From assembly GCF_001429065.1 (NCBI RefSeq), contig NZ_LMIB01000019.1, positions 1 through 64,000 of the forward strand: DNA of 64,000 nucleotides. The letters run 5' to 3'. Below are positions 33,243 to 50,795 of the stretch, piece after piece (within the stretch, counting starts at the first letter, position 1; each line of letters opens with the position of its first letter). The stretch is from Sphingomonas sp. Root710. Its GTDB lineage: Bacteria > Pseudomonadota > Alphaproteobacteria > Sphingomonadales > Sphingomonadaceae. The notes beneath the pieces are model-generated. The model saw nothing but the letters and a program-made list of their open reading frames with translations. It ran no database searches and was not told the origin of the DNA. The translations under genes were made by a program, and so were the position numbers.

Positions 33243-33289
33243 AAGATGAGTTGAGTAAAGGTGAGGGCCGGATAGGCTTGGCGCCGGGG

Positions 33290-35086: not shown

Positions 35087-35116
35087 TGTTAGAAAAAAGC
35101 GTGCTATTATCTAACA
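35087..35116. promoter_or_regulatory. Operator-like inverted repeat upstream of the AbiE pair
   Basis: TGTTAGA (35087-35093) and TCTAACA (35110-35116) are 7-bp inverted arms in an AT-rich promoter, 17 bp before the GTG start and next to the AGGAG ribosome site. AbiEi-type antitoxins repress their own operon by binding inverted repeats, so this is the likely operator. Confidence 0.65.
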
Positions 35117-35132
35117 GATAGGAGCACAGCCA

Positions 35133-35741
35133 GTGTCTGCGGTAGCCGATCGGATCATGAAGCGCGTGCGCGGCAAGGGCCGCGGCTGGGTGTTCACGCC
35201 CAAGAGCTTCGTCGACTTCGGGACGCGTGGGTCGGTCGACATGGCGCTGTCGCGCCTCGTGACCGCCGGCGACATCCGGCGCATCGGCCGGGGTCTTTAT
35301 GACTATCCGCGCCAGCATGACAAGCTCGGTGCGCTCAGTCCCGATCCCGCCAATGTCGCCAAGGCCCTCTCGACGCAGAGCGGGGACAAGCTCGCACCGT
35401 CGGGCGCGGCGGCGGCGAACAGGCTCGGGCTATCGACCCAGGTTCCCGCCCGGGCCAGCTATGCCACGACCGGCCGCACCCGGGTCAGGCAAGCGGGCGG
35501 GCGCAGCCTGACGCTCAAGCACAGCCGCGCACCGGTGCTCGACAATGCGCCGGACTCGGTCAACGCGGTCGTGCAGGCGCTCGCGCATCTGGGGAAGGAC
35601 AATATCGATAGCGACAAGATCCGGCACTTCGCCGCCCGCCTCGATGATCGCGACATGCGGATGCTCGCCCAGGCCAGGGCCGAGATGCCCGGATGGATGG
35701 GCGACGTCGTCTTAAAGATCGGCGCCGCCCGCAATGGATGA
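35133..35741 (+). CDS. abiEi: AbiEi-like antitoxin (DUF6088 family)
   Basis: This 202-aa protein begins with a winged-helix domain (VADRIMKRVRGKGRGWVFTPKSFVDFGTRGSV...LVTAGDIRRIGRGLYDYPR, positions 4-66), the AbiEi antitoxin N-terminus that acts as autorepressor. The rest (GAAAANRLGLSTQVPARASYATTGRTR...) is the usual AbiEi C-terminal domain. It would neutralise the nucleotidyltransferase encoded next in a type IV-like manner. Start GTG with AGGAG upstream. It overlaps the toxin gene by 8 bp. The pair may stabilise the plasmid and act against phages. Confidence 0.88.
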   Translation: MSAVADRIMKRVRGKGRGWVFTPKSFVDFGTRGSVDMALSRLVTAGDIRRIGRGLYDYPRQHDKLGALSPDPANVAKALSTQSGDKLAPSGAAAANRLGLSTQVPARASYATTGRTRVRQAGGRSLTLKHSRAPVLDNAPDSVNAVVQALAHLGKDNIDSDKIRHFAARLDDRDMRMLAQARAEMPGWMGDVVLKIGAARNG

Positions 35742-36783
35742 GTTCGCACGCAGACCAGCCGAGGATCGGCGCGCCTTTATCGATGAAGCGGCGGCGCGGC
35801 GGGATCTGACGCCGATCATCATCGAGAAGGATTTCTGGGTCTGCTGGACGCTACGCCGCCTCGTCATGTGTCCCGACCTCGCCGGTCACATGACCTTCAA
35901 GGGCGGGACCTCGCTGTCGAAAGCCTATGGGATCATCGCGCGCTTCTCCGAAGATATCGACCTCACCATCAGCCGCGCGGCGCCGCTGCTCAGCGAAGTC
36001 GCCTCGCCGATGGACAGCGACATTACCGGCAAGGAGCGCGAGCGCCGGACCAAGGCGCTCAAGGCGGCGGCACAGGCTTATGTCGCCACGGTCGCCATGC
36101 CGATCCTGGCGCGCGAAATCGAAGTCGCTCTCGGCACGGCCGAGGGCTGGAGCCTGGCGCTCGATCCCGACGACAAGGACCAGCAGACGCTGCTCTTCGT
36201 CTATCCGCGCACCTCGGGTTACGGGCTCGCCTATGGCGAGAATTACGGCGGCGCGGATGAAAGCGGTTACATCAAGCCGCGCATCAAGCTGGAATTTGGC
36301 GCCCGCGGCGACACGGAACCGTTCGCGCTTCGACCGATCTTGCCCTATCTGGCCGAAGACTTTCCCGAGGAACTGCCGGATCCGGTGACCGAGGTGCCGA
36401 CGCTGGCCGTTGCGCGGACCTTCTGGGAAAAGGTCACGATCCTTCATGCGCTCCATCATAACGGCAAGCTGCGCGAGGGCATGTCGCGCCATTATTATGA
36501 CGTGCTGATGCTCGACCAGGCGGGCATCACGAACGAGGCGATGGGGCGGATCGATCTGCTCGAGCAGGTCGTGCACAACAAGAGCCTGATGTTCGCGGAC
36601 AGGTCGGCCTCCTATGACACCGCCGTGGTTGGAACGCTGCGCCTGTCGCCCGATGGCGCGACTTGGGAGAAGCTTGAGCGGGACTATGGCGCGATGTCGG
36701 AGATGTTCATGGCCGCGCCGCCGAAATTCGAGGCGTTGATGAAGGGTCTGGCGGCGATCGAGGGGACGATCAACGGGCGTTGA
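35734..36783 (+). CDS. abiEii: AbiEii-like nucleotidyltransferase toxin
   Basis: This 349-aa DUF1814/AbiEii protein has the nucleotidyltransferase signature MTFKGGTSLSKAYGIIARFSEDIDL at about residues 52-76: GGTSL phosphate-binding turn and the DxD-like SEDIDLT metal ligand. IIEKDFWVCWTLRRL before it is also family-typical. Known AbiEii toxins transfer nucleotides to RNA targets and cause reversible growth arrest. The gene is intact and translationally linked to the antitoxin. It is the last plus-strand gene before the minus-strand defence block, with about 260 bp of AT-rich spacer after it. Confidence 0.9.
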   Translation: MDEFARRPAEDRRAFIDEAAARRDLTPIIIEKDFWVCWTLRRLVMCPDLAGHMTFKGGTSLSKAYGIIARFSEDIDLTISRAAPLLSEVASPMDSDITGKERERRTKALKAAAQAYVATVAMPILAREIEVALGTAEGWSLALDPDDKDQQTLLFVYPRTSGYGLAYGENYGGADESGYIKPRIKLEFGARGDTEPFALRPILPYLAEDFPEELPDPVTEVPTLAVARTFWEKVTILHALHHNGKLREGMSRHYYDVLMLDQAGITNEAMGRIDLLEQVVHNKSLMFADRSASYDTAVVGTLRLSPDGATWEKLERDYGAMSEMFMAAPPKFEALMKGLAAIEGTINGR

Positions 36784-37046
36784 TGCCGGAGACCGCGAAT
36801 GAGCAAGTAATCTAAGTATTTGAAATAGAACGATAAAAGACTGATAATATTTCTTATGTTAAATCAGTGCCAGCATCGCACAAGCGAGTGGCGGCTCACG
36901 CACCGAAGTCTGGCGTCAAAAGCCGAAGGCGCACCGAAAAGCTGCTCGGGCTGCCGAAACCCGACAGGTTGGCAACCAGCTGGGTTTCGTGCCTGCACAA
37001 AGATGGGCTAAATGCGGGACCAATGGAATCGAGCGAGGGAACTTGC

Positions 37047-37250
37047 ATGATCACCGCCAAGCACATCCCTTGGGAGCCGATCGGCACTTTGCCGGAAGAC
37101 CGGAAAGACGGCCGTCGCTTGCTGCTCTGGGAGGTTGACCTCCCTGTGATCGGGCGATGGGATAGCGACCGTGAGGGCTGGGAAAATCCCGAAAGCATGC
37201 ATATCCTGGAAGAAGTCATCTACTGGGCCGACATCACCCCACCCGTGTGA
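37047..37250 (+). CDS. Small DUF551-like protein
   Basis: A 67-aa protein with PWEPIGTLPEDRKDGRRLLLW at the start and VIYWADITPPV at the end, a pattern like the DUF551 family of phages and mobile elements (W-P-I...LP...W...YW). The ATG is preceded by GAGGGA; a longer in-frame GTG start at 36867 exists but the added part has no family character. Upstream (36784-36860) the DNA is AT-rich and promoter-like. Function unknown. Confidence 0.55.
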   Translation: MITAKHIPWEPIGTLPEDRKDGRRLLLWEVDLPVIGRWDSDREGWENPESMHILEEVIYWADITPPV

Positions 37251-37581
37251 TGAGTGGATAGGAAGGGGTTACTTATCGGTATCCGCAGTTCGACTGATTC
37301 AATAGTGCGCCAGCGTCCGGCCGATGCCGATCCGTCTGAACGGCGGCTTGGTCTTAAAGATATCGATGAGATCGAAAGCGCCGAGCGCGAAAGCCGCGAT
37401 GTCGTTGCCGGCCTTCAGGACGATGAGCTCGCCGGCATTGTGTCTCTTCGCGATCATGCTGTTGTTGGGATGAGAGGTGCTGTCTCCCGCGGCGGCTCCG
37501 CTTCGAGCCAAGAGAAAATCTGGCTAAGATCGTGGTCCGTTTAGGCAGCGATCGTCACCATCGGTGGTGCCTCTCCCTTGG
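37251..37581. other. 331-bp region without a confident gene
   Basis: Both strands are open for 70-96 codons here but neither frame is convincing: no ribosome site, and the minus-strand frame (37299-37511) is merely hydrophobic. It lies between convergent genes and marks the right-hand edge of the defence block. Confidence 0.4.
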
Positions 37582-39354
37582 TCATGGCGCGGCCCCGCCC
37601 GCGGGATCTGCTGGAAGCGGGATCACATTGGCCTCGCCGAACAAAGCTGTCACCTTCGCCATCGCGAGCTCGCTTAGAATCTGGGTGAACAACAGCGCCA
37701 ATCGGCGCTTCGGTCTGGAGCACGCGACGTAGAACAGGTTGCGATTGCTCTCGAAGGATTCGACCTTGTCTGCCGGGGGGCCTGGGTCGAGCCGTTCCAG
37801 CATCTGCGCGAAATTATACTTGTTCCAGCCACGGCCGACGATGACGAGCACGTTCTCGAACTCCGCACCCTTCACGCCGTGCTTGGTGGCGAAGGGCGTG
37901 TGACCATCGATGAACGCATCCACCGCCATCAGCTCGGTGTAGGCGACGTCCCGTAGCCTTCGCAGCTGGGCGATCCTCCGAGACTCGCCTTCGACCGGTT
38001 CGGGTCCGGCGTCGGCCAAGCGTTGCTCGCGGTCCAGCACCGCCTCGGGCAGATGCATGTGAGCCTGGCCTTTGATGAGGTCGATGACGGCGCCGATCGT
38101 GCCGGTCGCTCGCAATTGGATAAGCTGTTCGAGAGACTGCGTCCATGCGACCTTGTCGTGATGCCGACGGATGCACGGCCTGCCGGCGCCTAGGCTCTCA
38201 AACATCTCGCCATAGCGCTTCGCCTGAAAGGCCGCGCATGCTGGCTCGAGCTGGTCGGCCAGAAATTTGATGTGGGGGTCTTCTTTCTTGAGCCAGGCAT
38301 CGTTGAACTGGCCATAAATGCTCTGGATGGTCGGATAGCCCTGTTCCTTCGCCAGCACGCTGTGGCTGAGCATCAGGATCTTGGTGCGTTCGACGGCAAA
38401 GTCCCAGCCCTCATCCGACAATCGCTGCTTCAGGTGATCGAGATAGGCGCGTGCCGCCTCGGGGCTCGTGTCGCCAGTCCAGTGACCACCGCCCTGGCCC
38501 GTTCGGCGCTGGCCCGGCCATGCATTCGTGTGAAAGATTCGAGCCTCACCCGGCGCATCCGGGTCGCTGGGGATCTGTTCGAGATCGGGTCGCATGCGAT
38601 TGAGCACCGCGACGATGGGTTCGGCGGATCGGAAATTGGCGTTTTTGTCGATCACCTCGAGTGCTGCGTGCTCGACCGCACCGCATCCCTCACCGTAGAT
38701 CTTCTGCCAATGGTCGCCGAACAGGCCAATGATAGGCCCCGTACCCGTACCTAGGAAATGCTGCTTTAGAGCCTCTACGAAGCCCGCATCGGTGTCCTGA
38801 TATTCGTCAATCAGCAGCACGGGATAGCGCTTCGCTAGCACTAAGCGAAACTTGGGCCGTGCCAGCAGCTCCGTCATCAGCGTCAGCACGTCTTCGTGCT
38901 TCAATGACACCTCGTCTGGCGTCACCCGGGGATAGCCGAGGTCGTAATTGACCTTCCTCGCGCCTAGCCCCCCCACCCCGGCATCGGCGAGACGTTCTCC
39001 CCATCCCGGCAAGTCAGGCACGATCGCGCGGAGCTGGGGCTGAAAGTCCTGCAATACTGACCAACAAAATCCGTGAATGGTCTCCGGCCGAACCGCCGGG
39101 TGGGCCTGAACGCGCGCGATAATCTCATCCTTCGCCACGTTCGTGAACGTGATGCAACCAATCTGTTGGCGCTTACGCACAAGTTCCGTACCGCGAAGTT
39201 CGATCAGGCGGCGCAGCGCCTTTTCTAGGGAATATGTCTTGCCTGCGCCCGCGCCTGCCTCGAGCCGGAAGCTTTGTCCGGCATCGAAGCACGCATAGAC
39301 ACGCTCAAGTGCAAGGCGGCCGGCCGCGTCGGCGGCGGTCTCTTCGTCAGCCAT
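37582..39354 (-). CDS. gajB: UvrD/PcrA-type helicase, GajB-like
   Basis: This protein of about 590 aa is a superfamily 1 helicase. It has Walker A EAGAGAGKTYSL near residue 32, motif II LLIDEYQDTDAGF near 180, motif III GLFGDHWQKIYGEG near 210, and C-terminal KGAEFENVLVIVG and NLFYVACSRPKRRLALL near 480 and 540. It is directly coupled to an OLD-TOPRIM nuclease (8-bp overlap from the ATG at 39354), the gene pair that defines Gabija anti-phage systems, in which GajB assists GajA. It is longer than the roughly 490 aa of the best-known GajB. In-frame TTG 39381 and ATG 39369 are alternative starts. Confidence 0.88.
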   Translation of the reverse strand: MADEETAADAAGRLALERVYACFDAGQSFRLEAGAGAGKTYSLEKALRRLIELRGTELVRKRQQIGCITFTNVAKDEIIARVQAHPAVRPETIHGFCWSVLQDFQPQLRAIVPDLPGWGERLADAGVGGLGARKVNYDLGYPRVTPDEVSLKHEDVLTLMTELLARPKFRLVLAKRYPVLLIDEYQDTDAGFVEALKQHFLGTGTGPIIGLFGDHWQKIYGEGCGAVEHAALEVIDKNANFRSAEPIVAVLNRMRPDLEQIPSDPDAPGEARIFHTNAWPGQRRTGQGGGHWTGDTSPEAARAYLDHLKQRLSDEGWDFAVERTKILMLSHSVLAKEQGYPTIQSIYGQFNDAWLKKEDPHIKFLADQLEPACAAFQAKRYGEMFESLGAGRPCIRRHHDKVAWTQSLEQLIQLRATGTIGAVIDLIKGQAHMHLPEAVLDREQRLADAGPEPVEGESRRIAQLRRLRDVAYTELMAVDAFIDGHTPFATKHGVKGAEFENVLVIVGRGWNKYNFAQMLERLDPGPPADKVESFESNRNLFYVACSRPKRRLALLFTQILSELAMAKVTALFGEANVIPLPADPAGGAAP

Positions 39355-41413
39355 CGACCTGGGCCCCATCAGCCGCGTCAATCACTTCGGCGACCAACTC
39401 GGCGGCGATCGCGTCTGGCCCGAGGGTCGGCGCTGGATTGCCTTGGGCAAGCCACCGCAACCCTTCGCCGATGTAGCGCGGCGTCCGCCACTCGGTGTTT
39501 ACGATCGCATGTTCAAGCGCAAAGCTGGACTTTTTCTGTTCGGCCGCATGCTCATAGGCGAGCGTCGCCTGGTCGCCCTCGCCGAGATCGAAGAGTTCTG
39601 GATTGGCGAGGATGAAGGCATCCTCAAAGCTGCGAGCACATGGACCGCCATCCTGCTCGGGGATCTGATAGGCGAGCCGTCGTCCGCCGTCGGTCTTCTC
39701 CTCGGTCGACTTGTCGAGCAGCTGGGCTGGGCTCACGTCGGGCTCGTACCAGCTTTTGATACAGGCATTGCTGGTGAATGTGCCCTCGGCCACACGAACC
39801 GCCACGCGCTTGTTCTTGGCCCCGGGCGCAACGGAATCGATATCGGTGATGATCAGCGTGCGCAACTCGAGGAACGCCAGCAGGCCGAAGAAGCGATGGG
39901 CGTAGGCGCCGCCGACCTCCATGACAGTGAGGTACTGACTGCTTAGTTGCGGCTCGCCTTGCGCGGCAGCGTCGGTCTTGCGGATCATCGCCGGAAGGAG
40001 AAGGCGTTCAGCGGTTCCTTCGATCAGCACCGCCTTGTCCGCAAAGAAAAGGTCGCAGCGGGATAGCGTGAGATATTGATGAAGAAAATTGCGATCCTCT
40101 TCCGGCGCGCCGCCCATACCCTGCCGGAGATCCTTCACAACTGAGCGCCGGAGGCCCGGGCCGTCGGTAACCGACAGAAAATAGCGGAGGCTCTCGAAGC
40201 GGGCTTCGTTCGCCATGTGGGGCGAGTGGGTGGTGACGACGAACTGGACCGGCCACGGACGGTCGGCGTTCAATTGGGCGACGAACGCGTTGGCGATGTA
40301 CTCCAGCTGGCGTATGAACACCTCCTGCATCTGGGGATGCAGATGCGCCTCGGGCTCCTCGATAAAGATTAGATGCACGCCGGCCGCTGTTGGCGTTCCC
40401 TGGAACTCGCGGAAGAAGCGCAGGAGCTGTAGTAGCATGTAAACGAGGTTGCGCGCGCCGAGGCCATTGTAGGTTTCGGGCAGGGTTACGCCGTTCACGC
40501 CCCGGTAGCGCAGGCGCGTGTGGTTGCTGAGCAGCTTGTCGACGTCGAAGCTGGTCTCTGTCACCAATCCCGGGTCTACAAGGCCAGGATATCCAAACAG
40601 GTCGAACGTGGGCAGCAGTGAGGTCAGCTTGGCGTTAAAACCGATATGCAGATCGCCCTGGATCTGATCGACCGCCTCCTTGAGCTGCTCGGCGGTGCTG
40701 CGTCGCGTTGGATCCAGTTCGTCCGTCAATGCCGATTGGAAGAGCACCTCGACCACCTTGCCGAGCACGTCGCGCTCGCGGAATGTATCGTCATCCAGCC
40801 CGCGCTGGGCATTGATGAAGCCGCCGCCGACGAGCGCGGACAGGATCTTTGGTTCCAGTGTCTTCCGGTTGGTCGGGTCGTTCGGATCGACCGCTTCCAG
40901 CGATCCGGCATAGGCCGAGGCAATGCGATTTCCGAGTTCGCGGTAGAGCCGGGCGCGGTCCGCCTCCGGATCTTCGAGCGGCTCCGTTAAATCAACGAAC
41001 AACGCCTGTAGCGCATTGGCCTTCGGCGCGAACCGGAACTCCAGCCGGGCCTCGTGGCAATCGGGATTCAAGTCGATGATGCACTCGCTAAGCGGCCCAA
41101 GATCGGCCGCATCGACGTCATAGCCGATATCGAGCACGAGCTTGATTGCTGGCAACTGTCCGAGCGTCTCGGACGAATCTTGCTGCGCGCGGAAAGACAC
41201 AAGCGATGTCCAAAAGCATTCGTGACACCCGAGCGAAAAATCTTCGAGGCGGAAACTCAGGGCGCGATCGGACAGCAAGCGCCGGAACAGCTCGGCGATC
41301 GACGTCTTGCCGCTGTTGTTGCGGCCAACGATGAGCGTCGTCTGTTCTTCGAAACCGATCTCCACGTCGCGGAGGAGCCTGAAGTTTTCAATCTTAGCTC
41401 GGTTGATGCGCAT
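39347..41413 (-). CDS. gajA: OLD-family ATPase-TOPRIM nuclease, GajA-like
   Basis: This 688-aa protein has an ABC ATPase half with Walker A VGRNNSGKTSI at 29-39, Walker B LIFIEEPEAHLHP near 350 and the H-loop VVTTHSPHMANEA near 395. The TOPRIM nuclease half has VLIEGTAERLLLP near 462 and IITDIDSVAP near 523. With the adjacent helicase it forms a Gabija-like pair; GajA nicks DNA once nucleotide is depleted. It is about 100 aa longer than the well-studied GajA, largely in the insertion between Walker A and the signature (residues 45-330). The ATG follows GGGGGG-AAA, and TATATA upstream suggests its own promoter. Confidence 0.9.
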   Translation of the reverse strand: MRINRAKIENFRLLRDVEIGFEEQTTLIVGRNNSGKTSIAELFRRLLSDRALSFRLEDFSLGCHECFWTSLVSFRAQQDSSETLGQLPAIKLVLDIGYDVDAADLGPLSECIIDLNPDCHEARLEFRFAPKANALQALFVDLTEPLEDPEADRARLYRELGNRIASAYAGSLEAVDPNDPTNRKTLEPKILSALVGGGFINAQRGLDDDTFRERDVLGKVVEVLFQSALTDELDPTRRSTAEQLKEAVDQIQGDLHIGFNAKLTSLLPTFDLFGYPGLVDPGLVTETSFDVDKLLSNHTRLRYRGVNGVTLPETYNGLGARNLVYMLLQLLRFFREFQGTPTAAGVHLIFIEEPEAHLHPQMQEVFIRQLEYIANAFVAQLNADRPWPVQFVVTTHSPHMANEARFESLRYFLSVTDGPGLRRSVVKDLRQGMGGAPEEDRNFLHQYLTLSRCDLFFADKAVLIEGTAERLLLPAMIRKTDAAAQGEPQLSSQYLTVMEVGGAYAHRFFGLLAFLELRTLIITDIDSVAPGAKNKRVAVRVAEGTFTSNACIKSWYEPDVSPAQLLDKSTEEKTDGGRRLAYQIPEQDGGPCARSFEDAFILANPELFDLGEGDQATLAYEHAAEQKKSSFALEHAIVNTEWRTPRYIGEGLRWLAQGNPAPTLGPDAIAAELVAEVIDAADGAQVDG

Positions 41414-41572
41414 TTTCCCCCCTATTTTGGCGCTATATAACCCGGGCGATGAACCCTAGCGTCAGCGCGCCCGACGCCATCGGCTTGGGCGCCGATCACC
41501 TGGACGTCCGCACGGCGGAACCAAGGATCGGTCCCGAAGATGATCATGGCGCTGTCCTCTAGCCGCATCGCG
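41414..41572 (-). promoter_or_regulatory. Promoter region of the gajA-gajB pair
   Basis: The 159-bp gap after the YhaN-like gene contains, reading on the minus strand, TTATATAG about 20 nt before a GGGGGGAAA ribosome site and the gajA ATG. The AT-rich hexamer could be a -10 element; the -35 is not clear. The gap shows that gajAB may be transcribed separately from yhaON. Confidence 0.4.
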
Positions 41573-44500
41573 TCAAGCGAGCTCGCACTTCGAGTGGAGG
41601 TCGTCACCGACAACGGACTTGGCAATCTCGACAAGGTGGGGATGGTGCGTGAAGAACAGGACCTGCGTGGAACAGGCCACCTCGGCGAGCACCCTGAACC
41701 CCGCTTCGGCGCGCTCGTCGTCGAAGTTCACGAACAAGTCATCGGCGAGAAACGGCAGGTTGACCCCAGCCTTCACCGATTGCTCCAGCGCCGCCAGCCT
41801 AAGGGCGAGGAAGAGCTGGTCGGTGGTGCCCTCGCTCATGGCGCCCACCTCCACCATTGTGCGTCGATCGTCCCTCAGGCCCAGCAGCCGCGGGACGCTT
41901 CCGTCGGCGTCCACTCGTAGCGCGGCATAGCGGCCGGCGGTCAGAATCGAGAACAAATCGCCGGCGCGCAACAGCAACGGATCTTGATGTCTTTCGCGGT
42001 ATTTCTCGATCGCCCACTTCAACGTCAGCGCCTGAGCACGCTTCAGGATGTACTGTTCGGCAAGGACTTCAAGCTCGGCCTTCGCCTGTTCCGCGTCCGA
42101 TGCCGCGTCCACCGCGGCTGTCCCGCCCGCGTCGAGGGCGGTGAAAGCAGATCTGGCGTGGCCATGCGCCGTAGCCGCTGCGGCCACCTCGTCGTTCAAT
42201 TCCCCCAACCGTGCATCCAGCGACGAGACGTGGCTCGCGATTTGGTCAGGATTAGAAGCGGCGACTGCGGCGACGAGTTCGTCCAGCGTGAAGCCGTCCC
42301 CTTCCTCGACGATCCTGCGTTCTATGGCGGCCCGCTCCACCGTCAGCCGGCGCTTCGCGCGCGACCGTTCGATCGCTTCCGATAATTCCGCGCGATCCGT
42401 CGATTTGGTTTCAGCGAGCGCGGGGGCCAGCGCCGCGTCGGCCGTGGCGAGCTTCGCCGAAGCCTCCTCGAACTGATCCGCGCGGCGGCGCGCTTCCTCA
42501 TCCAGCGAATCGATCAGCGTGGCGGCCGACCTGGCCGCCGTGAGGCAATTCCTTAGAGCGCCAAGCCGCGTCGCCGTGTCGCCCGCGGGAACGTTGGAGC
42601 CATCGGACAACTTCTCTACCCGCTCCATGTGATTGCTGGCGTCCCTGCGGATCGTCTCGACCCTCCTGCGCAGGTCTGCCTCTGCCGCGATGGCGCCACG
42701 AAGATCATCGAGTAGTTCCAGAACCGCACCGCAAGTGACGATGTCCAGCTGCAGACCGGCTTCGTCCATTACTTCTCGCCAGGACGTGACGTTCGACGCG
42801 TCCTCATCGTCGAGGCGCTGGTGCCGCCGGTCGAGGGCGGAGGCCTCCGCGGCGATCTGGTCCAACTGTTCTGCGGCAAGACGGCGCTGTTGCGTAAAAT
42901 CCTCGTATTCAGCCCGCTTCCGCTCGGCTGCCGCGAGTACCGGCGTTAACGGTCCGCCGGCGTCCGCAACCTCCAACGCCTGCGCCAGCGCGGCCCGGCA
43001 CCGGTCACGCCGTCCGACAATGGAAGCGAGATCGGCCCGCAACGTCAAGCCATCGCGATGGGCCTCGACCGCCGCGTCCCGCGCCGACCGCCAGGTTAGG
43101 AAACGGGTGGGCTCGAGGGCTGGCAGGCCGGCCGCGGTCAATCGCGCCGCCCATGCCTCCGCTGCTTCTCCATAACGCTTGCGGGCATCTTCAATCCGGC
43201 CCTGCGCTTGTTTGGCCTGAAGATCGTGCGACGCCTTGGACCGCTCGAGCACGGAGAGGCGGCTCGACTCCTCGGCCAGCGAAAAACGGAGGACCATCTT
43301 CTCGTCCACACGGGACACGCTTGTCTCGTAGTCGGCTACGGCCGCTTCTGGAGACCCGAGTGGGGTCCCCGCAAGGACATTCTCACGGATGGGTTGCCAG
43401 CAGTCCTGGCGGCTCAAACGGACCGATGCGATCTCGTCCTCGGACACGACGGTGCCGGTCGCGAGTTGGCCAATCTCCAGCGCAACCTTCTCGGCCTCTT
43501 CGGTCCAGTGCCGGAGCTGCTCCTCTTCACGGCGAACTTGGCCGAGAATTTCGGCCAGTTCGCTACGTGCGGACTCGATCTCCTCGTCGCCCACCTCGGG
43601 TAGCACCAGCAGCTCGTCGATTCCGCCCGTCCACGGCGAAAGGCGGGTGAGCAGGGCGGGCAGCGACGATGCCAACGCTTCGACCCTAAGGCCGGCTCCT
43701 TCGCAACGAGCGTCGGCATCCGATCCGAGCGCGCGTGCGGCGTCGACCGCATCAATGAGCGCCTCGGAAGCCGCGGCGGCCGATGCACCATCGAGCCGGT
43801 CCTGCGCGCGCTTCCTTCGGTCGTCGAGATCGTTCCGGCTCTCGGCGATCTGCCTTCTCGCGGCGGCGTTCTCGCCGTGAGTCCGGGAGAGGTCGCGCAA
43901 CTTTGCCGCCAAAGCGCGTGAAGGTGTGGCGTCCGCGTTGGGTCCCGCTTCGGCCCTCAAACGGCGAGTCAGCGCCTCCGCGACGACGAGCTCCGCCTCG
44001 CGCCGGACTAGATCCTGCGCGGCCTTCGCGACGGCGCCCCCGTCCGCGATGAGCTGGTCGATCTCGTCCGCCTTTTCCAAAAGGGTCGGATCGGCCTCGA
44101 TTTTGTCCCGACGGTTTTCCGCGTCAGCCTTTAGCTGCTCTGCGGTCGACCTCTGGCGCTGGGCCTCCTCGGCCTCGCGGATCACGCGTTCCGCCTCGTC
44201 CTCGCGTTGCACACTGAGATCAACGATGGTTTCGTAGCCGAGCAGGGTCTCGGTCTGCTCGTCGCGCAGCCGTACGAGCGGGGCGAGCCGCCTTACGCGG
44301 TCTGCAGCCCTCAGCTCCGTTTGGACCACGTCGCGGGCGTCTCGAGCCAGATTGAGTGCGGCCTGTGCCTCCAGCATCGCGTTCCGTGCGTCAGACCAGG
44401 ACTTGGGCTTGAGAGCTGCGTCTCGGATCGTCTTGGTGGCTTCGGCGAGCTGGCGGTGCGCGAAGGTAAAGCTGCGTCGCTGGGACGTCGTAGGCGCCCA

Positions 44501-45013
44501 GATGGCATCGGCCTCGCCTTCGAGCTTCTTGAGCTCGTCGGCGACGCCGGTGAGGCCAGAACCCGCGGCGAACAACGTGCGGCCGAGGTCGTTCTTGGCT
44601 TCTACCATTGCCTTGCCTCCCGAGCGCAGGGCATCCTGGTCGAGACTGAAGGAGAGGCTGAAGGTTTCGCGGGTCTGCCCTTTCAGCATCGAGGCAAGGG
44701 GAGCCTCGTCGATCGCTGCGTCATTCGTGTCAAGCAGCGTGCCGGCCGTACCCTTTTTCCGGCGGCACGCGAACGTCCGACTACCGTCCTCCAGTACCGC
44801 ACCGACCCTGAGGAGGATGTAATCGAACATGAAGTTGTACGGCGACCGCTGGGGGAATCCGAAAAGGAGGTCTGACACCGCCGCCAGCGAGGTCGTCTTG
44901 CCGGCTTCGTTCGCCCCATAGATGATGTGGAGGTCGGGGTCGCCGGACCGAAAGTTTAGCTCGCAGTCCGCGAAGCGGCCGTAACGTTCGAGGGAAAGGC
45001 GGGAGAAACGCAT
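41573..45013 (-). CDS. YhaN/SbcC-like AAA ATPase with long coiled coils
   Basis: This 1146-aa protein is of the Rad50/SbcC kind, close to the YhaN family. The N-terminal Walker A is in IIYGANEAGKTTSLAAV (residues 30-46), followed by the RRKKGTAGTLLD type lobe. Residues about 180-990 are Ala/Glu/Arg-rich coiled coil, broken in the middle; I do not see a CxxC zinc hook. The C-terminal lobe has the signature LSEGT-like MSEGTTDQLFLALRLAALE and Walker B PFLADDLFVNFDDERAE with the FFTHHPHL H-loop. It is 2 bp downstream of a YhaO-like nuclease, so the two should form an Mre11/Rad50-like DNA-end processing complex within the defence block. Confidence 0.88.
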   Translation of the reverse strand: MRFSRLSLERYGRFADCELNFRSGDPDLHIIYGANEAGKTTSLAAVSDLLFGFPQRSPYNFMFDYILLRVGAVLEDGSRTFACRRKKGTAGTLLDTNDAAIDEAPLASMLKGQTRETFSLSFSLDQDALRSGGKAMVEAKNDLGRTLFAAGSGLTGVADELKKLEGEADAIWAPTTSQRRSFTFAHRQLAEATKTIRDAALKPKSWSDARNAMLEAQAALNLARDARDVVQTELRAADRVRRLAPLVRLRDEQTETLLGYETIVDLSVQREDEAERVIREAEEAQRQRSTAEQLKADAENRRDKIEADPTLLEKADEIDQLIADGGAVAKAAQDLVRREAELVVAEALTRRLRAEAGPNADATPSRALAAKLRDLSRTHGENAAARRQIAESRNDLDDRRKRAQDRLDGASAAAASEALIDAVDAARALGSDADARCEGAGLRVEALASSLPALLTRLSPWTGGIDELLVLPEVGDEEIESARSELAEILGQVRREEEQLRHWTEEAEKVALEIGQLATGTVVSEDEIASVRLSRQDCWQPIRENVLAGTPLGSPEAAVADYETSVSRVDEKMVLRFSLAEESSRLSVLERSKASHDLQAKQAQGRIEDARKRYGEAAEAWAARLTAAGLPALEPTRFLTWRSARDAAVEAHRDGLTLRADLASIVGRRDRCRAALAQALEVADAGGPLTPVLAAAERKRAEYEDFTQQRRLAAEQLDQIAAEASALDRRHQRLDDEDASNVTSWREVMDEAGLQLDIVTCGAVLELLDDLRGAIAAEADLRRRVETIRRDASNHMERVEKLSDGSNVPAGDTATRLGALRNCLTAARSAATLIDSLDEEARRRADQFEEASAKLATADAALAPALAETKSTDRAELSEAIERSRAKRRLTVERAAIERRIVEEGDGFTLDELVAAVAASNPDQIASHVSSLDARLGELNDEVAAAATAHGHARSAFTALDAGGTAAVDAASDAEQAKAELEVLAEQYILKRAQALTLKWAIEKYRERHQDPLLLRAGDLFSILTAGRYAALRVDADGSVPRLLGLRDDRRTMVEVGAMSEGTTDQLFLALRLAALEQSVKAGVNLPFLADDLFVNFDDERAEAGFRVLAEVACSTQVLFFTHHPHLVEIAKSVVGDDLHSKCELA

Positions 45014-45015
45014 TG

Positions 45016-46269
45016 TCAGGCTTCCGGCGTCAGGCGCGACCGCAACGCCGTTGATGCGGTGCCGAGGATTCCTGCCCAGTCGCCCTGTGCCGCTAACAGA
45101 CGCAATTCACCGTCCTCCGACTCACCGAGCGCGCTCTTCGCCAGAACCATGAAGCGCTCCAGATCCGCCTCAATCGCCGCCGCTAGTCCGAGGTCCGAGG
45201 AGCCCTCGCCGATCAATTCATCGAGATCCTCGCCGAGCACGGCGTGTTGTTCCGTGGTCGGCTCCGACACCAGTACCTTCACCTTCTCGACATGAAGGTC
45301 TGGCGAGATCGACGTGGCGATGGCGCGCACGTCGTCCCGAATGGCCCCAGCCTTGTCGATGAGCGCGCCTGCGCCTGCGAGCTCGCCCCTCAGGCTCACG
45401 CGGACGATCATTGGCCGACCGGAGCCATCGGCGCCGTGGATGCGCGTCAGTTCGGCGCGGATCAGGTCCGGGAGGCCGCCCGGCGATGAGCCGGCGCAAT
45501 CGATGTCGAGGCGGATCCAGCGCACAACGTCCAGATCGATGCGATCAATGGACGAAACCTCGCCATCCACCACCGTCACGATGACTGCACCCTTTGCGCC
45601 CGCCTCGCGTATAGTGCGGCCCTGCACGTTGCCTGGAAAGACGACATAGGGGTTGTCGTTGACGATTTCGAACTCGTGCACATGGCCGAGTGCCCAGTAG
45701 TCGTAGCCCTTCCCGCGTAAATCTTCGACGCCACAGGGCGCGTATTTGGCGTGCCCCGGCCGCCCCGCCAAGGCGGTGTGGAGTACGCCGATGTTGAACG
45801 AGTTCGCTTCTGCGGCCGGATAGGAGAGGACGAGGTTGTCGGTGACGGCCGGCGTGGAAAAGCTCTGGCCGTGCAGCGCCACAGCGAGGTTCGGCAGCCT
45901 GTGGGTTTCGGGACGCCTCGGTCCGAATTGGCGAACGTTTGGCGGCCAAGTCAACGTCCGCGAGATCGCCGAGGCGGCGTCGTGGTTGCCGGCAATAATG
46001 AACGCTGGAATGCCGGCCTGATCGAGACGGCCCATGGCCCGGGCAAAGTAGAGTCCCGTCCCCATATCGCGCCAGTCGCCATCGAATAGATCGCCGGCGA
46101 TGACGACAAAGTCCACCGCCTCGTCGATCGCGCATTGGATGAGGTTGTCAAACGCGGATCGCGTGGCCGACCGGATCTCCTCGACGGGAAGTCCATCGTA
46201 CCGCGATAGGCCATGCAATGGACTGTCCAAATGGATGTCCGCAGCATGCAGGAAGCGGAAACTCGACAC
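45016..46269 (-). CDS. YhaO/SbcD-like metallophosphoesterase nuclease
   Basis: This 417-aa protein is a calcineurin-like nuclease, partner of the YhaN-like ATPase. The metal-binding motifs come in order: LHAADIHLDS (D11, H13), VIAGDLFDG (D60), IAGNHDAAS (N95-H96-D97) and WALGHVHEF near 190. The C-terminal third is the capping domain of YhaO/SbcD proteins. It starts at a GTG 9 nt after GGGGGG, about 90 bp downstream of the methyltransferase-nuclease gene, and its stop is 2 bp before the yhaN ATG. YhaO-YhaN pairs are usually repair proteins; here the setting suggests a defence use. Confidence 0.88.
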   Translation of the reverse strand: MSSFRFLHAADIHLDSPLHGLSRYDGLPVEEIRSATRSAFDNLIQCAIDEAVDFVVIAGDLFDGDWRDMGTGLYFARAMGRLDQAGIPAFIIAGNHDAASAISRTLTWPPNVRQFGPRRPETHRLPNLAVALHGQSFSTPAVTDNLVLSYPAAEANSFNIGVLHTALAGRPGHAKYAPCGVEDLRGKGYDYWALGHVHEFEIVNDNPYVVFPGNVQGRTIREAGAKGAVIVTVVDGEVSSIDRIDLDVVRWIRLDIDCAGSSPGGLPDLIRAELTRIHGADGSGRPMIVRVSLRGELAGAGALIDKAGAIRDDVRAIATSISPDLHVEKVKVLVSEPTTEQHAVLGEDLDELIGEGSSDLGLAAAIEADLERFMVLAKSALGESEDGELRLLAAQGDWAGILGTASTALRSRLTPEA

Positions 46270-46319
46270 GGTGATGTTCCCCCCTGGCAGTCAGTGCCTA
46301 CCGTTTATGAAGATAAGAG

Positions 46320-46348
46320 CGGCAAATGGAGACGTTGGCCATTTGCCG
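46320..46348. terminator. Hairpin between the R-M gene and the YhaO-like gene
   Basis: CGGCAAATG (46320-46328) and CATTTGCCG (46340-46348) form a perfect 9-bp stem with an 11-nt loop, 12 bp after the methyltransferase stop. On the minus strand it is followed by CTCTTATCTT, a weak U-tract, so it may reduce readthrough from the R-M gene into yhaON. Confidence 0.5.
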
Positions 46349-46360
46349 AAGCGCAGCTTC

Positions 46361-49300
46361 TCAGGCCGCATAGCGGCCGTCCTCAAGCTTTCGTACCATC
46401 CCCATTCCTGCAAGCGCATCAAGCACTGGCGCGACTGTAGAGGCGCGTTTCCCTTTGAATGCACGGGCAACATCTTTGGGCGCCAATGGTTTGGCGGACC
46501 GCGCCACGACGCTTGCGACGGCAACCACTTGTTCTGGAAGGGCGCTTGGCCAATCCCGCTCCACCTTCTTTGCCTTGGTGCCTCTGCGAAGTTGCAGGAC
46601 GACTTGGGCCGGCTTCTTTCGGAGGGATTTCGCCTGGAAAGAGGGCCGAACCCACCGGATCTGCCCCGCACGCTCCTCCTCGGCTCGCTCGTCATTCAAA
46701 GCAACAAGCCTGACCAGCATTTCCTCATGTTCCAAGTCGCGCGGCCAACCGTATGCTTCAGCGACAGCCTCATCTATCTGTTGGTGATAATGGCGGATGA
46801 GCGAGACTTCGCCGCGTTCGGCGACGGACCGGTATTTGGGATCAAGAACTCCACCCTTGGCATCTCGCATACGGGCGAGCGTGGTATAAAGTGCTGTCAG
46901 GGTCAGATCCGAATGGCGCGCTAGAACCTTCCGGCGCAACCTGTCCAATTTGCGCGCTGCAATCCGAATCCTCTGCTCCAGTTCCGGCACGCTCGGCGGA
47001 AAGGGAAACGGATCAAAACAGGTTTCATTTTGATAACGCGGATCGTCGCCCGACCCCATCCGCCCGCCCGCACGAAGCGCCCACACGGTGTGCGCTGTGC
47101 TCGAGACCACGCCGAGAACATAGGGGTCGTCGGACGCAATCGCTATAACTGAGCCATCCACGAGACGGCCCGCACTGGGAATAAACTTGAAGAACCTCTC
47201 CGTAGCTGTTTCGCTGGTGACGATGTAGCGCCGGAGACCGCTGATGGCTGCACGAAGCCTCGGTCGAGGTTCTGCGAAGCGCCACCAATTGAGGCGGTAC
47301 TGCTCCCTGTCGTTTTCATCGCGCTCTGGCTTCACATGATCGAACAGGTAGCGGTGCACGCCAGGGAAGCGATCATGCAACTCGTCCTCAGTCTCGATGT
47401 CGAAGAAGTCGAGAGCGTAAGTGTTACTTTGAGACTCAGTCACATCCGTGCCGGCCACAACCAGCGGCATTCGTTCCGGCGGCACGCCATCGGCGATGAA
47501 GCGGGCTCGCTGCTCGGTATTGATTTTGAATCCGTCACCGGACATTTTCACACCCATACGACAGATGTTGCCGTTGGCTCTGAGTGAGGTGGCGCCGGCG
47601 ACGTTGGCGCCGGTAGTCAGATCGATGTTAATCGGCGCAACTTGCTCCTCAAACTCGAGCAGTGTTTCACCTTTTTTGCGCTTCTCCAGTGAAACGCTCG
47701 ACAGCCGTCCTGCGCCTTGTCCGGCAGCAGCCGCAGTCATCGCGATCCGCACCGCAGCGGTTGTTTCCTGATCGTGCCACGGATGGTTCGGAATCGCGAA
47801 GGTCAGGTAGAGTTTGCCACCGCGCTCAGGATCGAGATAGCGGCTAAGCACCGAGCGATTACTCGATTGGGCAATAGTCTTCGTCGTGATGAGACCAAAT
47901 CCTCGAACAGAGCCATTCGCTACCTGCTCGGCACTTCGTGCCCACCAATAGGTCACGAAATCGATCTCGCCAGAAAGGTCGCCGTACACGCTCCGGAGCG
48001 TATCGACGTAGGGCGACCCGAGGCGCTTGCGCATTCGGCGGCATCCGATGAAGGGCGGGTTCCCGATGATGAAGTCTGCCTCCGGCCAGACTTGCCGCCG
48101 CGGATTGACGTACCGATATACCGTTAGCCGACCGGAGTGATCGGGAACGGGTCGCCCGGTCACTGGATGCGGCTTCATCGACGTACCATCCCAGATCGTC
48201 TTTGGCTCGCCGTTCTCCATCTCAGGAAGCTTCTCGTCCCAATCAAGCAGGGCATCGGCTGGGATGATCGTTCTGACATCACGCAAAACGGGGGGCTCGG
48301 GCATCCGATCTTCTCCGTTCACACGAAAATGCCATTGAAGATAGCCAATCCAGAGCACGAGTTGAGCGATCTGTGCAGCCCGAGGATTGATTTCGAGGCC
48401 ATGGAAGTTGGCAGGAGTAATCGTGTGGCTGCCGAGCTCAAGAAGATAGCGCTCATCGCCGAGTGCTTCGAGCAATTCGAGCACCTCTCCTTCCAACTCC
48501 TTAAGTCGCGCAAGCGCGACATAAAGGAAATTGCCCGTTCCGCAGGCCGGGTCTAGAATGACGATGTTTGCGAGCTTGGTGTGAAAGCGTTCGACCTCAA
48601 GACGCGCGGTCTCCTTGTCGCCTGCTTCCGCAGCCAAGGTTGCTGCGGTTCGCGCACCTTCCCAATCAGCGCGCAGGGGTTCCATTACGGTGGGGCCGAC
48701 CAGTCGCTCTACATAGGCGCGCGGAGTGAAATGCGCGCCAAGCTTGGCGCGTTCTTTGGCATTCAGCGCACGCTCAAGCAAGGTTCCGAAAATTGCTGGC
48801 TCGACCTGGCGCCAGTCCGATGCCGCTGCGTCGATGAGGACGTTGATCTCACGCTGATCAAGCGCCAGCGCACTGGCATCCTTAAAGAGGTATCCATTGA
48901 ACTGACGCACAACCTCCCCTGCCTCACCAAGGCCAAACGCAAGGCCACCGGTATCCATCGCCTCCCATAGCTGACTGAGTTGGGGGGCCAGGAGTTCGGG
49001 GCGATCGCGGACTTTTTTCAAGAGCGCGCTGAAACTCGCCTTCGGAATAAGACCAGTGTCCTCCGCGAACATGGTAAAGAGGAGACGCATAAGGAAGGCC
49101 GCCACGCGATCCGGGTCCTGCTCTCGAGCTTCGATACCCTGGGCTAGAACAGCCAGATGATCCGCAATTTTTCGCGTAACCCGTGCCGCCTCGGCCGAGG
49201 GGTCGAGCGACATTGGCATGGTCCAAATTGCCGCCAGGCGCTCCCGGACTGTCTTGTCGCGCAGTTCATCGAGGGTAATTCGATACCGACGACGGTCGGG

Positions 49301-49831
49301 AAATGGCGCATAGCCTTTCCCGTTGCGTTGAAAGTCCGCATAGACGTCGATGCAATATCCAACGTCGCTGACCAGCAGGAAAGGTGGCCAGCCATGTGAG
49401 CGGGGCAAATTCTTAGCGTAGCCCTCCGCTTGACTTGCAGCTCGCTGCATAGCGCCGGTCCATGCAGCGGTGTCTCGACGAGCCATGCCGCGCTTGAAGC
49501 GGTCCTCCGCAGTCTGGCCAAAGAAGTCGCGAAGCGAGTAACCTTGACCAGCGTCGACTGCCGCCAGGTCGGCACTGCTACCTTGCTTAGCCTCTAAGAT
49601 GAAACTGCCACGCTTATAGCAATCAATCCAGCCGTTGGATGTAGCGCCATCAATCTCGGTTTTGATGACATGACGTTCGAAGACGTAATCATTCTGCGCT
49701 GTGTCACTTAGCGTTGGCCGCGGGGCCTCTACGCCGAGCAGTTGACACAGATCGGTTAGAAACAATTGTGTGTTGGCTCGCTCGTTGCCACCTGCGGGTG
49801 CCCACTTCGCAATAAAATCTTCGACGTCCAC
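46361..49831 (-). CDS. MmeI-like restriction-modification enzyme (type IIL, single chain)
   Basis: This 1156-aa protein unites nuclease and adenine methyltransferase. The N-terminal PD-(D/E)xK site reads WID(70)-x9-E(80)-A-K(82), the same spacing as described for MmeI. The helical connector follows, then the gamma-class methylase with motif I ILDPACGTGNFLYVAL near 425 and motif IV IIGNPPFIG near 587, and a target-recognition region (residues about 650-950). MmeI-like enzymes modify one strand and cut about 20 bp away. This protein is over 200 aa longer than MmeI; the extra C-terminus ends in a winged-helix-like segment (LAPKDVARAFKGKRASTVAPVLDALAGMGMV). Start GTG behind a G6 run. Confidence 0.88.
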   Translation of the reverse strand: MDVEDFIAKWAPAGGNERANTQLFLTDLCQLLGVEAPRPTLSDTAQNDYVFERHVIKTEIDGATSNGWIDCYKRGSFILEAKQGSSADLAAVDAGQGYSLRDFFGQTAEDRFKRGMARRDTAAWTGAMQRAASQAEGYAKNLPRSHGWPPFLLVSDVGYCIDVYADFQRNGKGYAPFPDRRRYRITLDELRDKTVRERLAAIWTMPMSLDPSAEAARVTRKIADHLAVLAQGIEAREQDPDRVAAFLMRLLFTMFAEDTGLIPKASFSALLKKVRDRPELLAPQLSQLWEAMDTGGLAFGLGEAGEVVRQFNGYLFKDASALALDQREINVLIDAAASDWRQVEPAIFGTLLERALNAKERAKLGAHFTPRAYVERLVGPTVMEPLRADWEGARTAATLAAEAGDKETARLEVERFHTKLANIVILDPACGTGNFLYVALARLKELEGEVLELLEALGDERYLLELGSHTITPANFHGLEINPRAAQIAQLVLWIGYLQWHFRVNGEDRMPEPPVLRDVRTIIPADALLDWDEKLPEMENGEPKTIWDGTSMKPHPVTGRPVPDHSGRLTVYRYVNPRRQVWPEADFIIGNPPFIGCRRMRKRLGSPYVDTLRSVYGDLSGEIDFVTYWWARSAEQVANGSVRGFGLITTKTIAQSSNRSVLSRYLDPERGGKLYLTFAIPNHPWHDQETTAAVRIAMTAAAAGQGAGRLSSVSLEKRKKGETLLEFEEQVAPINIDLTTGANVAGATSLRANGNICRMGVKMSGDGFKINTEQRARFIADGVPPERMPLVVAGTDVTESQSNTYALDFFDIETEDELHDRFPGVHRYLFDHVKPERDENDREQYRLNWWRFAEPRPRLRAAISGLRRYIVTSETATERFFKFIPSAGRLVDGSVIAIASDDPYVLGVVSSTAHTVWALRAGGRMGSGDDPRYQNETCFDPFPFPPSVPELEQRIRIAARKLDRLRRKVLARHSDLTLTALYTTLARMRDAKGGVLDPKYRSVAERGEVSLIRHYHQQIDEAVAEAYGWPRDLEHEEMLVRLVALNDERAEEERAGQIRWVRPSFQAKSLRKKPAQVVLQLRRGTKAKKVERDWPSALPEQVVAVASVVARSAKPLAPKDVARAFKGKRASTVAPVLDALAGMGMVRKLEDGRYAA

Positions 49832-49910
49832 AGGCCCCCCTTGCTCTGAGTCTTTTGGGGCTCAGGACGATGAGGATCAAGCTATTCCGTGCGAGCGGTT
49901 TCAGTCGCGC

Positions 49911-50795
49911 CTATCGACTGCGAGATCGCTGGATAGGTGGGTGAACCTTAGACGATTCCTGTCGGCCGGACGCGACTTTGACAGGCCCCCGTTCCCGTGT
50001 ATCCCTGACCGTGGCAGGACGAATTTGATGACCCTGTTCGACGTGGTTTCGCAGTTTCGTGGTCGCGACCTTCATAACACGCGAGATCGCTTCGGGATTG
50101 TCGAACAATGCGGTTCGCACGACCGCCTCGATCACTCGCAACTGACTTTGCGCGGCTCGCTCGTTTCTGTCTCCGGGCGCCTCAGGTCGGGATCGCGTCG
50201 GTCGCTCGCGAGCCTGTGACTGACCTCGGCCGGACTCCAGGCTGATTGATGGAACGGCAGCCGGCGCAATACTGTTGCGGCTCTTGTCTCGCCGTAGCCG
50301 ATCCAATTCTTGTAGGTCGCGTTCGTTCGGCCGATATCCTCGTACTTCCAATCCTTGGCGACTGGCCTCGAGCCATGCTGCCCGGCGGAAGGCTTCGCTG
50401 CCAGTAAGATGAACATTCGACCATCCGCGATGCCGGGCGATGGCGACGAGATCACGCACGACCTCCTCACTCTCGCTCGAGGTGACAAGACGCCGCCCTT
50501 GGTCCCGAAATGCAGGCTCTTTTGCCTGCGCCGTCGTGAAGTAGGCCGGTTCGCCCGACCATTTGCCGGTCGACGAAAAGTAGCGCTTTCGCAGGGGCTC
50601 CGGTATGTCGCCGGCAGAAATTGATCGGGGCTCGACCCCTGCCCCCTCCTTGCCTTTGTTAGGGGTGCCGGGATCCTTGGGAATGTCGTCCCGCGTGTCT
50701 TTCCCAGAACGCGGTGCGGACTGACCTTCACCGATTGAAATGGCATTGGCGCGCTTCCTGGCGCCCCGCGAATTCTCGGACTTCTCAGCGGACAT
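49911..50795 (-). CDS. LPD7-domain protein of the transfer region
   Basis: This 294-aa protein contains, at about residues 90-170, the LPD7 pattern: FRDQGRRLVTSSESEEVVRDL, then VAIARHRGWSNVHLTGSEAF, RRAAWLEASRQGLEVRGYRP and a closing NERDLQELDRLR. LPD7 domains are usually fused to the C-terminus of relaxases or TraC-type primases; here the domain stands alone next to the coupling-protein gene, with basic disordered ends. It may complement the short relaxase at 33843-34964 in trans. The ATG overlaps the traG end by 11 bp. Confidence 0.8.
   Translation of the reverse strand: MSAEKSENSRGARKRANAISIGEGQSAPRSGKDTRDDIPKDPGTPNKGKEGAGVEPRSISAGDIPEPLRKRYFSSTGKWSGEPAYFTTAQAKEPAFRDQGRRLVTSSESEEVVRDLVAIARHRGWSNVHLTGSEAFRRAAWLEASRQGLEVRGYRPNERDLQELDRLRRDKSRNSIAPAAVPSISLESGRGQSQARERPTRSRPEAPGDRNERAAQSQLRVIEAVVRTALFDNPEAISRVMKVATTKLRNHVEQGHQIRPATVRDTRERGPVKVASGRQESSKVHPPIQRSRSR

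Follow-up and report, generated by a model that had tools for sequence, protein, structure and literature searches.

Do five defence-type genes that lie head to tail on a sphingomonad plasmid form one antiviral system, or are they separate modules that share a site? Here, we describe the locus that raises this question, a block of five large genes at positions 37582-49831 of a 64,000-nucleotide stretch of Sphingomonas sp. Root710 DNA (hereafter the window; positions 1 to 64,000 of NZ_LMIB01000019.1), which is part of a 101,599-bp contig in a genome of 4.77 Mb. A first-pass annotation, made from the sequence alone, had named an MmeI-like restriction-modification (R-M) enzyme, a YhaO/YhaN pair and a GajA/GajB (Gabija) pair on a plasmid with transfer genes, and had proposed that the five make up one combined system in which methylation marks self. 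Its gene calls, family names and plasmid setting are correct: all five open reading frames (ORFs) are present on the minus strand with intact motifs, and the PADLOC, Pfam and motif evidence for the families is far beyond chance. The modules are of known or near-known kinds, and a single new antiviral system is not supported; the block is very probably the current cargo of a plasmid exchange slot, where three self-contained defence modules are stacked and no dedicated coupling is needed. The five genes are as follows.

46361..49831, minus strand: MmeI-like type IIL/IIG single-polypeptide restriction-methylase, 1156 aa, GTG start (PADLOC, Pfam, PDB, motifs)
45016..46269, minus strand: YhaO, Mre11/SbcD-like metallophosphoesterase, 417 aa, GTG start (Pfam, Mre11 structure match)
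41573..45013, minus strand: YhaN, Rad50-like coiled-coil ABC ATPase without a CxxC hook, 1146 aa (Pfam, profile, model)
39347..41413, minus strand: GajA, OLD-type ATPase with a TOPRIM nuclease domain, 688 aa (PADLOC, Pfam)
37582..39354, minus strand: GajB, UvrD-like Gabija subunit, 590 aa from ATG (PADLOC; length per the annotation of relatives)

For GajB, the first-pass annotation took a TTG start at 39381 (599 aa), and the ATG at 39354 gives the 590 aa annotated in relatives. The genes are separated by 91 nt (MmeI-YhaO), 2 nt (YhaO-YhaN) and 159 nt (YhaN-GajA), and GajA and GajB overlap by 8 nt; this spacing divides the block into three units, namely MmeI, YhaO-YhaN and GajA-GajB. G+C content is 58.4% for MmeI, 64.0-65.7% for YhaO-YhaN and 61.2-61.7% for GajA-GajB (window, 64.2%), differences that would fit separate origins of the modules and prove nothing. 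Scans for promoters (3 sites, 2.4 in shuffles) and terminators (12 sites, 10.8 in shuffles) returned numbers near the shuffle level and so give no guide to co-transcription of the block. None of the five genes encodes an integrase.

The MmeI-like protein matches PADLOC model PDLC03627 (type IIG restriction endonuclease-methyltransferase) with 1380 bits over residues 1-1156, carries all four Pfam domains in order on one chain (MmeI_N, MmeI_hel, MmeI_Mtase, MmeI_TRD) and matches PDB 5hr4 at E 2.7e-41. Its nuclease motif D70-x9-E80-x-K82 (PD-(D/E)xK) and methylase motifs (DPACGTG at 427, NPPF at 591) are intact, and we take D70/E80/K82, DPACGTG and NPPF to match MmeI's own numbered residues; the assignment of catalytic residues among the motifs of the block is likewise in part presumed. 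Members of the MmeI family methylate their own site and cut unmethylated sites a short distance away. GajA is matched by PADLOC PDLC00063 (E 5.1e-283) and Pfam OLD-like_TOPRIM (E 1e-15), with Walker A at 30, LIEG at 463 and TDID at 523 intact, and GajB by PADLOC PDLC00113 (E 5.2e-259), with Walker A and IDEYQ intact.

The slot was delimited by flank searches, after which window positions 33000-53000 were aligned by blastn to 17 plasmid loci. Four of these, which carry other cargo (L151-L154), match the window as far as 37251-37252, immediately beyond a small conserved ORF, and then again from 49907-49912, where an LPD7-domain gene ends; in relatives that gene adjoins coupling-protein-type and virB11 genes. 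On the left, the slot is bordered by a pair of genes for an AbiEii toxin and an AbiEi antitoxin (35133-36783, plus strand), both confirmed by profiles, which lies just outside the block and was missed in the first pass. The features of the slot and its edges are:

37253..49906, no strand: exchanged cargo, between the end and the restart of the sister-plasmid match (blastn against 17 plasmid loci)
35133..35741, plus strand: AbiEi-type antitoxin at the slot edge, DUF6088 in relatives (PADLOC PDLC02226, E 2.4e-61; annotation of relatives)
35734..36783, plus strand: AbiEii-type nucleotidyltransferase toxin at the slot edge (PADLOC PDLC02289, E 1.7e-96)
37047..37250, plus strand: small conserved hypothetical ORF ending at the left slot junction (WP_007683427.1 in pDE1, 1:1 alignment)
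49911..50963, minus strand: LPD7-domain gene of the transfer region at the right slot edge (Pfam LPD7, E 1.2e-22)

Plasmids with this slot are mostly typed rep_cluster_647, and a literature search found no description of a slot between relaxase/AbiE and LPD7-virD4. Elsewhere its cargo is mostly of R-M, BREX or Ssp types. The pSPHCH01 slot holds HigA, a type II methylase, an annotated BsuBI/PstI endonuclease and an AAA ATPase, and that of SC-1 a JAB/E2-type gene set with an annotated type I R-M system, AbiEii being replaced as well. In diverged relatives (flanks of 75-79% identity) the slot contains helicase-nuclease, Mre11-like and Rad50-like genes, along with WYL genes except in DC-6. The Mre11/Rad50-like genes are followed by BREX (BrxC, PglX, PglZ, BrxL) in pTomMM15c, by type III R-M in herbicidovorans, JS3065 and DC-6 (the methylase was checked in herbicidovorans, the others named by annotation), and by a Druantia-E-like helicase and a DrmMI-like methylase in pRSMS1. 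KK22 keeps a short remnant in the slot, without the Mre11-Rad50-like pair, and B90A keeps the left flank alone within the stretch examined. By annotation only, RW1, AntQ-1 and CL5.1 carry AbiE-type genes and other cargo, including SspC and SspD in CL5.1 and a 53% relative of the slot's Rad50-like gene in RW1; the AntQ-1 interval is largely metabolic, so the slot is not reserved for defence. Three loci (L161, L162, L164) were compared by annotation and not by junction alignment; BREX, type I and type III names follow the record annotation in L005, L006, L154, L156 and L160, and names in L152, L155, L159 and L164 were profile-checked for some genes. Tardibacter, R. dicambivorans and TA15, in which slot content was judged from gap size only, were left out of the analysis.

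Two of these cargos merit description in their own right. YBL2 (L151 1494-6696) and C8-2 (L153 3291-8492) carry MazG, with a MazG_C domain, and uracil-DNA glycosylase, to which YBL2 adds C1 peptidase, helix-turn-helix and ImmA/IrrE genes, the last with a chagasin-type inhibitor domain. No PADLOC model matches the MazG protein at E 1e-5, and it is possible that this cargo is a so far unrecognised defence set. A recurrent unit (L155 3921-13614, L158 3766-13459, L159 17420-27112) lies beside BREX, type III R-M or Druantia-E-like genes and consists of WYL, NOV_C/DUF3883, HEPN-annotated, RNase_H_2 plus AAA_11/12 helicase-nuclease, Mre11-like and Rad50-like genes. Its Rad50-like gene is 95-100% identical in eight plasmid records, of which five were examined (CP041018, CP046254 and NC_020542 were left out). 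The WYL/helicase-nuclease/Mre11-like/Rad50-like set could be an undescribed resection-type defence unit. Its Rad50-like protein also has LDD and no CxxC, and the window's YhaN does not find it in any slot locus (tblastn, E 1e-6); this protein and YhaN represent two separate families that are only distantly related.

The complete block has a narrow distribution. Megablast against 72,556 plasmid records returned nine matching records, four of which hold at least 80% of the block at about 100% identity, all from Sphingobium (pDE1, pTK1, pSLPG and pSCLO_4), and one further genome (G497) contains the entire block at 99.96%. The five genes together are thus known from one recent Sphingobium plasmid lineage. 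All five are unbroken in the window, pDE1, pTK1 and G497. In pSLPG an IS66 element splits the MmeI gene after codon 764, and in pSCLO_4 the first 812 MmeI codons are gone beside IS6100 and gajA has a one-base gap relative to the window. Of the five sister copies, two have a broken MmeI, and every one gives full-length, gap-free alignments for YhaO, YhaN and GajB. Two CFD-1 plasmids keep the flank and have the block reduced to the last 545 bp of gajB. The disruption of MmeI on two plasmids that keep YhaO, YhaN and GajB intact counts against the proposal that methylation marks self for the whole block; a caveat to this argument comes from G171, the genome that matches pSLPG, whose chromosome has further MmeI-like matches (34-41% identity, one with an in-frame stop).

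The modules were also sought apart from the plasmid lineage. One genome per species was scanned for YhaN, and the best 79 of 549 relatives were kept, 39 of them with at least 9 kb on both sides. MmeI, GajA, GajB, AbiEi and AbiEii were found at none of these best 79 of 549 loci (tblastn, E 1e-8), and YhaO lies directly upstream of YhaN in 70; of the nine loci with no adjoining YhaO, five end at a contig end and four (L061, L064, L071, L080) do not. Among 397 genomes of the host family, YhaN is present in 17 and GajB in 12, and the overlap consists of three genomes (G000, G171, G497), all with copies of the plasmid block. Outside the lineage, GajB occurs in none of the 14 YhaN genomes (P = 0.32 with the lineage counted once), and in this larger sample the single combined system fails the refutation test that the first pass set for it. 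Among 226 genomes of the order, which have YhaN in 5, YhaO in 6, MmeI in 25, GajA in 12 and GajB in 7, YhaN and MmeI are together only in G000 and G171. Twenty genomes behind YhaN loci include two with GajB; judging by coordinates, it lies outside the YhaN contig in G530 and not within 100 kb of YhaN in G527.

Several observations weigh against wholly independent modules. Among the genomes of the order, YhaN and GajB occur together more often than chance would give (P = 0.0035, lineage counted once, two cases); the case besides the plasmid lineage is G196, where one contig carries GajA at 11 kb from YhaN. Conserved linkage of all modules across independent replicons was not found in the best 79 of 549 loci or the 397 family genomes, with AAP5 p213 as a partial exception: within about 21 kb (L147 4278-25502) it has an 82%-identical MmeI, YhaO-YhaN and another Gabija subfamily, in a different gene order and orientation from the window, with YhaO-YhaN (39% and 30% identity) on the opposite strand. 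In Sphingomonas NBWT7 (L008 10417-22515), genes for Shedu, GajA, GajB, AbiEi, AbiEii, YhaO and YhaN follow one another on the same strand, flanked by Tn3 elements, GajAB being 76-77% identical and YhaON distant. AAP5 p213 and NBWT7 were found with block sequences as the query, so they form a biased sample and are not countable in a linkage test. At a further locus (L018), a 1133-aa UvrD-type protein upstream of YhaON matches GajB models (E 5.8e-63) and RTasHel (E 2.9e-64), with no GajA match near YhaON (tblastn). Some clustering of modules is thus real, the module kinds meet more than once, and some combination of modules may be favoured.

Three of these loci have further content. In G196 (C19 249608-269202; L101, L145), YhaO-YhaN (54% and 40%) and a distant Gabija lie on the same strand 11 kb apart. 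The AAP5 p213 stretch also holds a PD-T7-3-like gene, AlkB and a 3'-5' exonuclease. In Sphingomonas hominis (L018 2129-8088), a ThiF/E1-E2-type protein accompanies the UvrD-type protein upstream of YhaO-YhaN.

The middle module, YhaO-YhaN, is a gene pair as found in Bacillus. YhaO matches Pfam Metallophos (E 2.8e-12) and, as its best Mre11/SbcD structure, Mre11 1ii7 (E 2.4e-11), has intact DIH, GDLF, GNHD and GHVH motifs, and scores 51.9-52.7 bits with the SbcD model TIGR00619, below the curated cut-off of 77.65. YhaN matches Pfam AAA_27 (E 7.8e-74), with GxNEAGK, SEGT, LADD and HH motifs intact. Searched alone, YhaN gave no PDB relative; with a profile built from 36 YhaN sequences, both ends hit the Rad50 head (best E 2.6e-7, 3qku). 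A predicted model built with 27 sequences (mean predicted local distance difference test score 83, predicted template modelling score 0.37) combines an ABC head of two lobes with a long, helical central part, and aligns to Rad50 4ncj_A with Z 21.6 and a root-mean-square deviation of 4.5 A over 270 residues (VIA-align); SMC heads score alike, so the two families cannot be told apart by fold alone. Walker A, signature and Walker B Asp are invariant in 36/36 sequences. In SbcC/Rad50 a Glu follows the Walker B Asp; in YhaN this residue is Asp in 36/36 sequences. By its cysteine positions the window's YhaN has no CxxC, and one of the 36 aligned sequences has one.

Two other assignments for the pair were considered and not adopted. 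YhaN weakly matches LmuB (PADLOC, E 9.6e-8, residues 252-625), with no LmuA or LmuC among the matches listed for the block, which leaves little to link it to Lamassu; LmuB of Lamassu is described in a review (PMC10586767) as generally having Gln in place of the Walker B Glu. That YhaON might be a phage gene was set aside on just three short matches in 50,697 phage records. A literature search for YhaN or YhaO as defence returned nothing on point; an ABC ATPase survey (10.1093/nar/gkaa726) might mention them, and PMC10853773 has no mention of Mre11, SbcC, Rad50, YhaN or calcineurin.

What the pair does is the point at which alternatives to three stacked defence modules have to be weighed. The best of these holds that YhaON repairs DNA of the plasmid or the host (processing palindromes or conjugation ends, for instance) and lies by chance between two defence modules. 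In the window's genome, the SbcD model matches the plasmid YhaO alone, and AddA is present above cut-off; by this model, the plasmid YhaO appears to be the host's only recognisable Mre11-like nuclease. Among 49 family genomes, SbcD scores above cut-off in one, gives some match (E 1e-3) in 11 and none in 38, and the matches in three (G000, G238, G240) are YhaO genes beside YhaN. As a control, the model matches in 13 of 14 well-known genomes and is above cut-off in 8; Caulobacter is not among the named control genomes, so a divergent alphaproteobacterial SbcD is possible in the host family. The rare detection of SbcD leaves room for a repair role, which also agrees with the annotation of most relatives as DNA repair exonuclease, with a plasmid on which YhaON stands alone among efflux genes, and with the commonest Pfam families near YhaON, which are largely non-defence (PfkB among them).

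The neighbours of YhaON speak on the other side. The two nearest ORFs on each side, called mechanically, came to 215 proteins and represent 55 of the 79 loci, after exclusion of 24 loci with fewer than two neighbour ORFs on a side and of five proteins of more than 1300 aa; in several loci defence genes of named types adjoin the pair (type III R-M, JetC/D, HerA, MzaE, ThsA/B, PtuA). On plasmids YhaON is found beside BREX-annotated genes, R-M-annotated genes or Shedu-Gabija-AbiE, and elsewhere alone. Control ORFs from the same genomes (127, from 15 of 20 requested stretches) have mainly generic matches, with one to type II methylases. Matching models number 143 from 120 neighbour proteins, 73 from 95 and 15 from the 127 control ORFs, and these counts exaggerate the difference, a single protein being able to match many models of the same family; distinct names among the matches listed are about 15 and about 8 for the two neighbour sets and 8 for the control (RtcR, mad2, mad3, IetA, RTasPolA, Csa3, QatD, MTase_II). 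The enrichment is thus no clean count, and we regard the association of YhaON with defence as suggestive only: the pair would be mobile, often but not always in defence islands. Taken together, a repair role for YhaON is a real contender that falls somewhat short of being probable. A general coupling of YhaON to R-M was rejected, as the matches listed for 31 loci include a single type III restriction protein and a single type III methylase.

A layered defence of DNA ends is a second alternative. Here, MmeI would break DNA, YhaON would open or degrade blocked ends, and Gabija would attack linear DNA kept from host AddAB, the separate modules being co-selected as each covers another's escape route. 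By family, all three modules relate to DNA ends or breaks. Gabija is reported in one study to prevent circularisation of linear phage DNA not acted on by RecBCD and to be licensed on such DNA by phage end-binding proteins (PMC12407980), an earlier proposal being release by nucleotide depletion (PMC8136825); helicase activity is reported not to have been seen for GajB (PMC10681800). SbcCD is described as cutting near protein-blocked ends and at hairpins (PMC6265447), and OLD/TOPRIM nucleases as backups beside BREX (PMC12839542). The host has AddA and no SbcD match besides the plasmid YhaO, and in the same slot a distinct Mre11-Rad50-like pair stands beside BREX, type III R-M or a DrmMI-like methylase. 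Nevertheless, close MmeI or Gabija relatives are missing from the best 79 of 549 YhaON loci and from several plasmids, YhaON and GajB are retained on plasmids after MmeI breakage, and the 397 family genomes give no linkage, all of which makes co-selected layers unlikely. Finally, one integrated five-gene system with methylation as the self mark for all its parts is very improbable and was discarded on linkage and on the tolerated loss of MmeI: its genes are collinear, on one strand and unbroken in four copies, but these belong to a single lineage in which MmeI is broken in two of five sister copies and gajA has a one-base gap in one, and the modules fall into three spacing units and are separable in both the best 79 of 549 loci and the 397 genomes.

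We therefore favour the reading of the block as stacked, self-contained modules in an exchange slot. The slot would belong to a family of sphingomonad conjugative plasmids and lie between their relaxase/AbiE end and the LPD7-virD4 transfer genes, with cargo probably swapped by homologous recombination between the conserved flanks. The MmeI-like enzyme would, as its family does, modify its own site by methylation and cleave a little way from that site wherever it is unmethylated; YhaO-YhaN, with its Mre11- and Rad50-like folds and motifs, may act on DNA ends, hairpins or protein-blocked ends; and the GajA-GajB complex would act on linear phage DNA. The modules would add their effects as layers of defence, AbiE at the edge of the slot making a fourth, and partial synergy is possible, given that DNA ends or breaks are a theme common to all three. 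It is plausible that end-processing complexes supplied by a plasmid would serve in defence. A more speculative and rather unlikely extension is that, sphingomonads being mostly without recognisable chromosomal SbcCD, plasmid slots supply Mre11-Rad50-type modules that would defend by attacking incoming DNA at its blocked or hairpin ends and so complement Gabija and methylation-based restriction as a further layer, and that Asp for Glu and the lack of CxxC would make both ATPases slow-hydrolysing sensors rather than housekeeping repair enzymes.

Elsewhere in the window are a Tn3 transposase gene (1243-4197, plus strand), a plasmid Rep3-type initiator gene (11331-12491, minus strand), a gene for a 1399-aa Strawberry-notch-type helicase (14404-18600, plus strand; AAA_34, Helicase_C_4) that is also annotated on related sphingomonad plasmids, and arsenic-resistance-type genes (22147-25350, plus strand) including an ORF with phosphatase and ArsC domains, a GNAT protein and an FMN reductase.

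What had been claimed as a new system becomes a tractable comparison of related plasmid backbones with interchangeable defence cargos. Natural knockouts are on hand (broken MmeI, the one-base gap in gajA, the deleted block), in a host family in which SbcD is rarely detected. This setting lets one ask whether Mre11-Rad50-like pairs on plasmids serve defence, repair or both, and whether Gabija's targets change in their presence.

Each module resembles a known system. The MmeI-like protein has the domain order and the PD-(D/E)xK and methylase motifs of MmeI type IIL R-M, and is longer (1156 aa, compared with 919 aa in the 5hr4 chain). The GajA-GajB pair is as in Gabija in domain make-up, gene order, overlap, best PADLOC models and TOPRIM motifs, and is in no way unusual, with neighbours that vary among plasmids. 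YhaO-YhaN shares with SbcCD/Mre11-Rad50 the adjoining Mre11-like and Rad50-like genes and the Rad50/SMC-type head; it differs in that YhaO falls below the SbcD cut-off and YhaN has no CxxC in 35/36 sequences and has Asp in place of the Glu that follows the Walker B Asp in Rad50. At the level of the whole block, the combination of BREX with OLD/TOPRIM backup nucleases (PMC12839542) likewise sets methylation-based restriction beside an OLD-TOPRIM nuclease; in the block, the restriction is of type IIL, the nuclease is a full Gabija and the units are separate. Like the defence hotspots and islands of other mobile elements, the slot has fixed flanks and variable defence cargo, here set between the relaxase/AbiE and LPD7-virD4 regions of sphingomonad plasmids.

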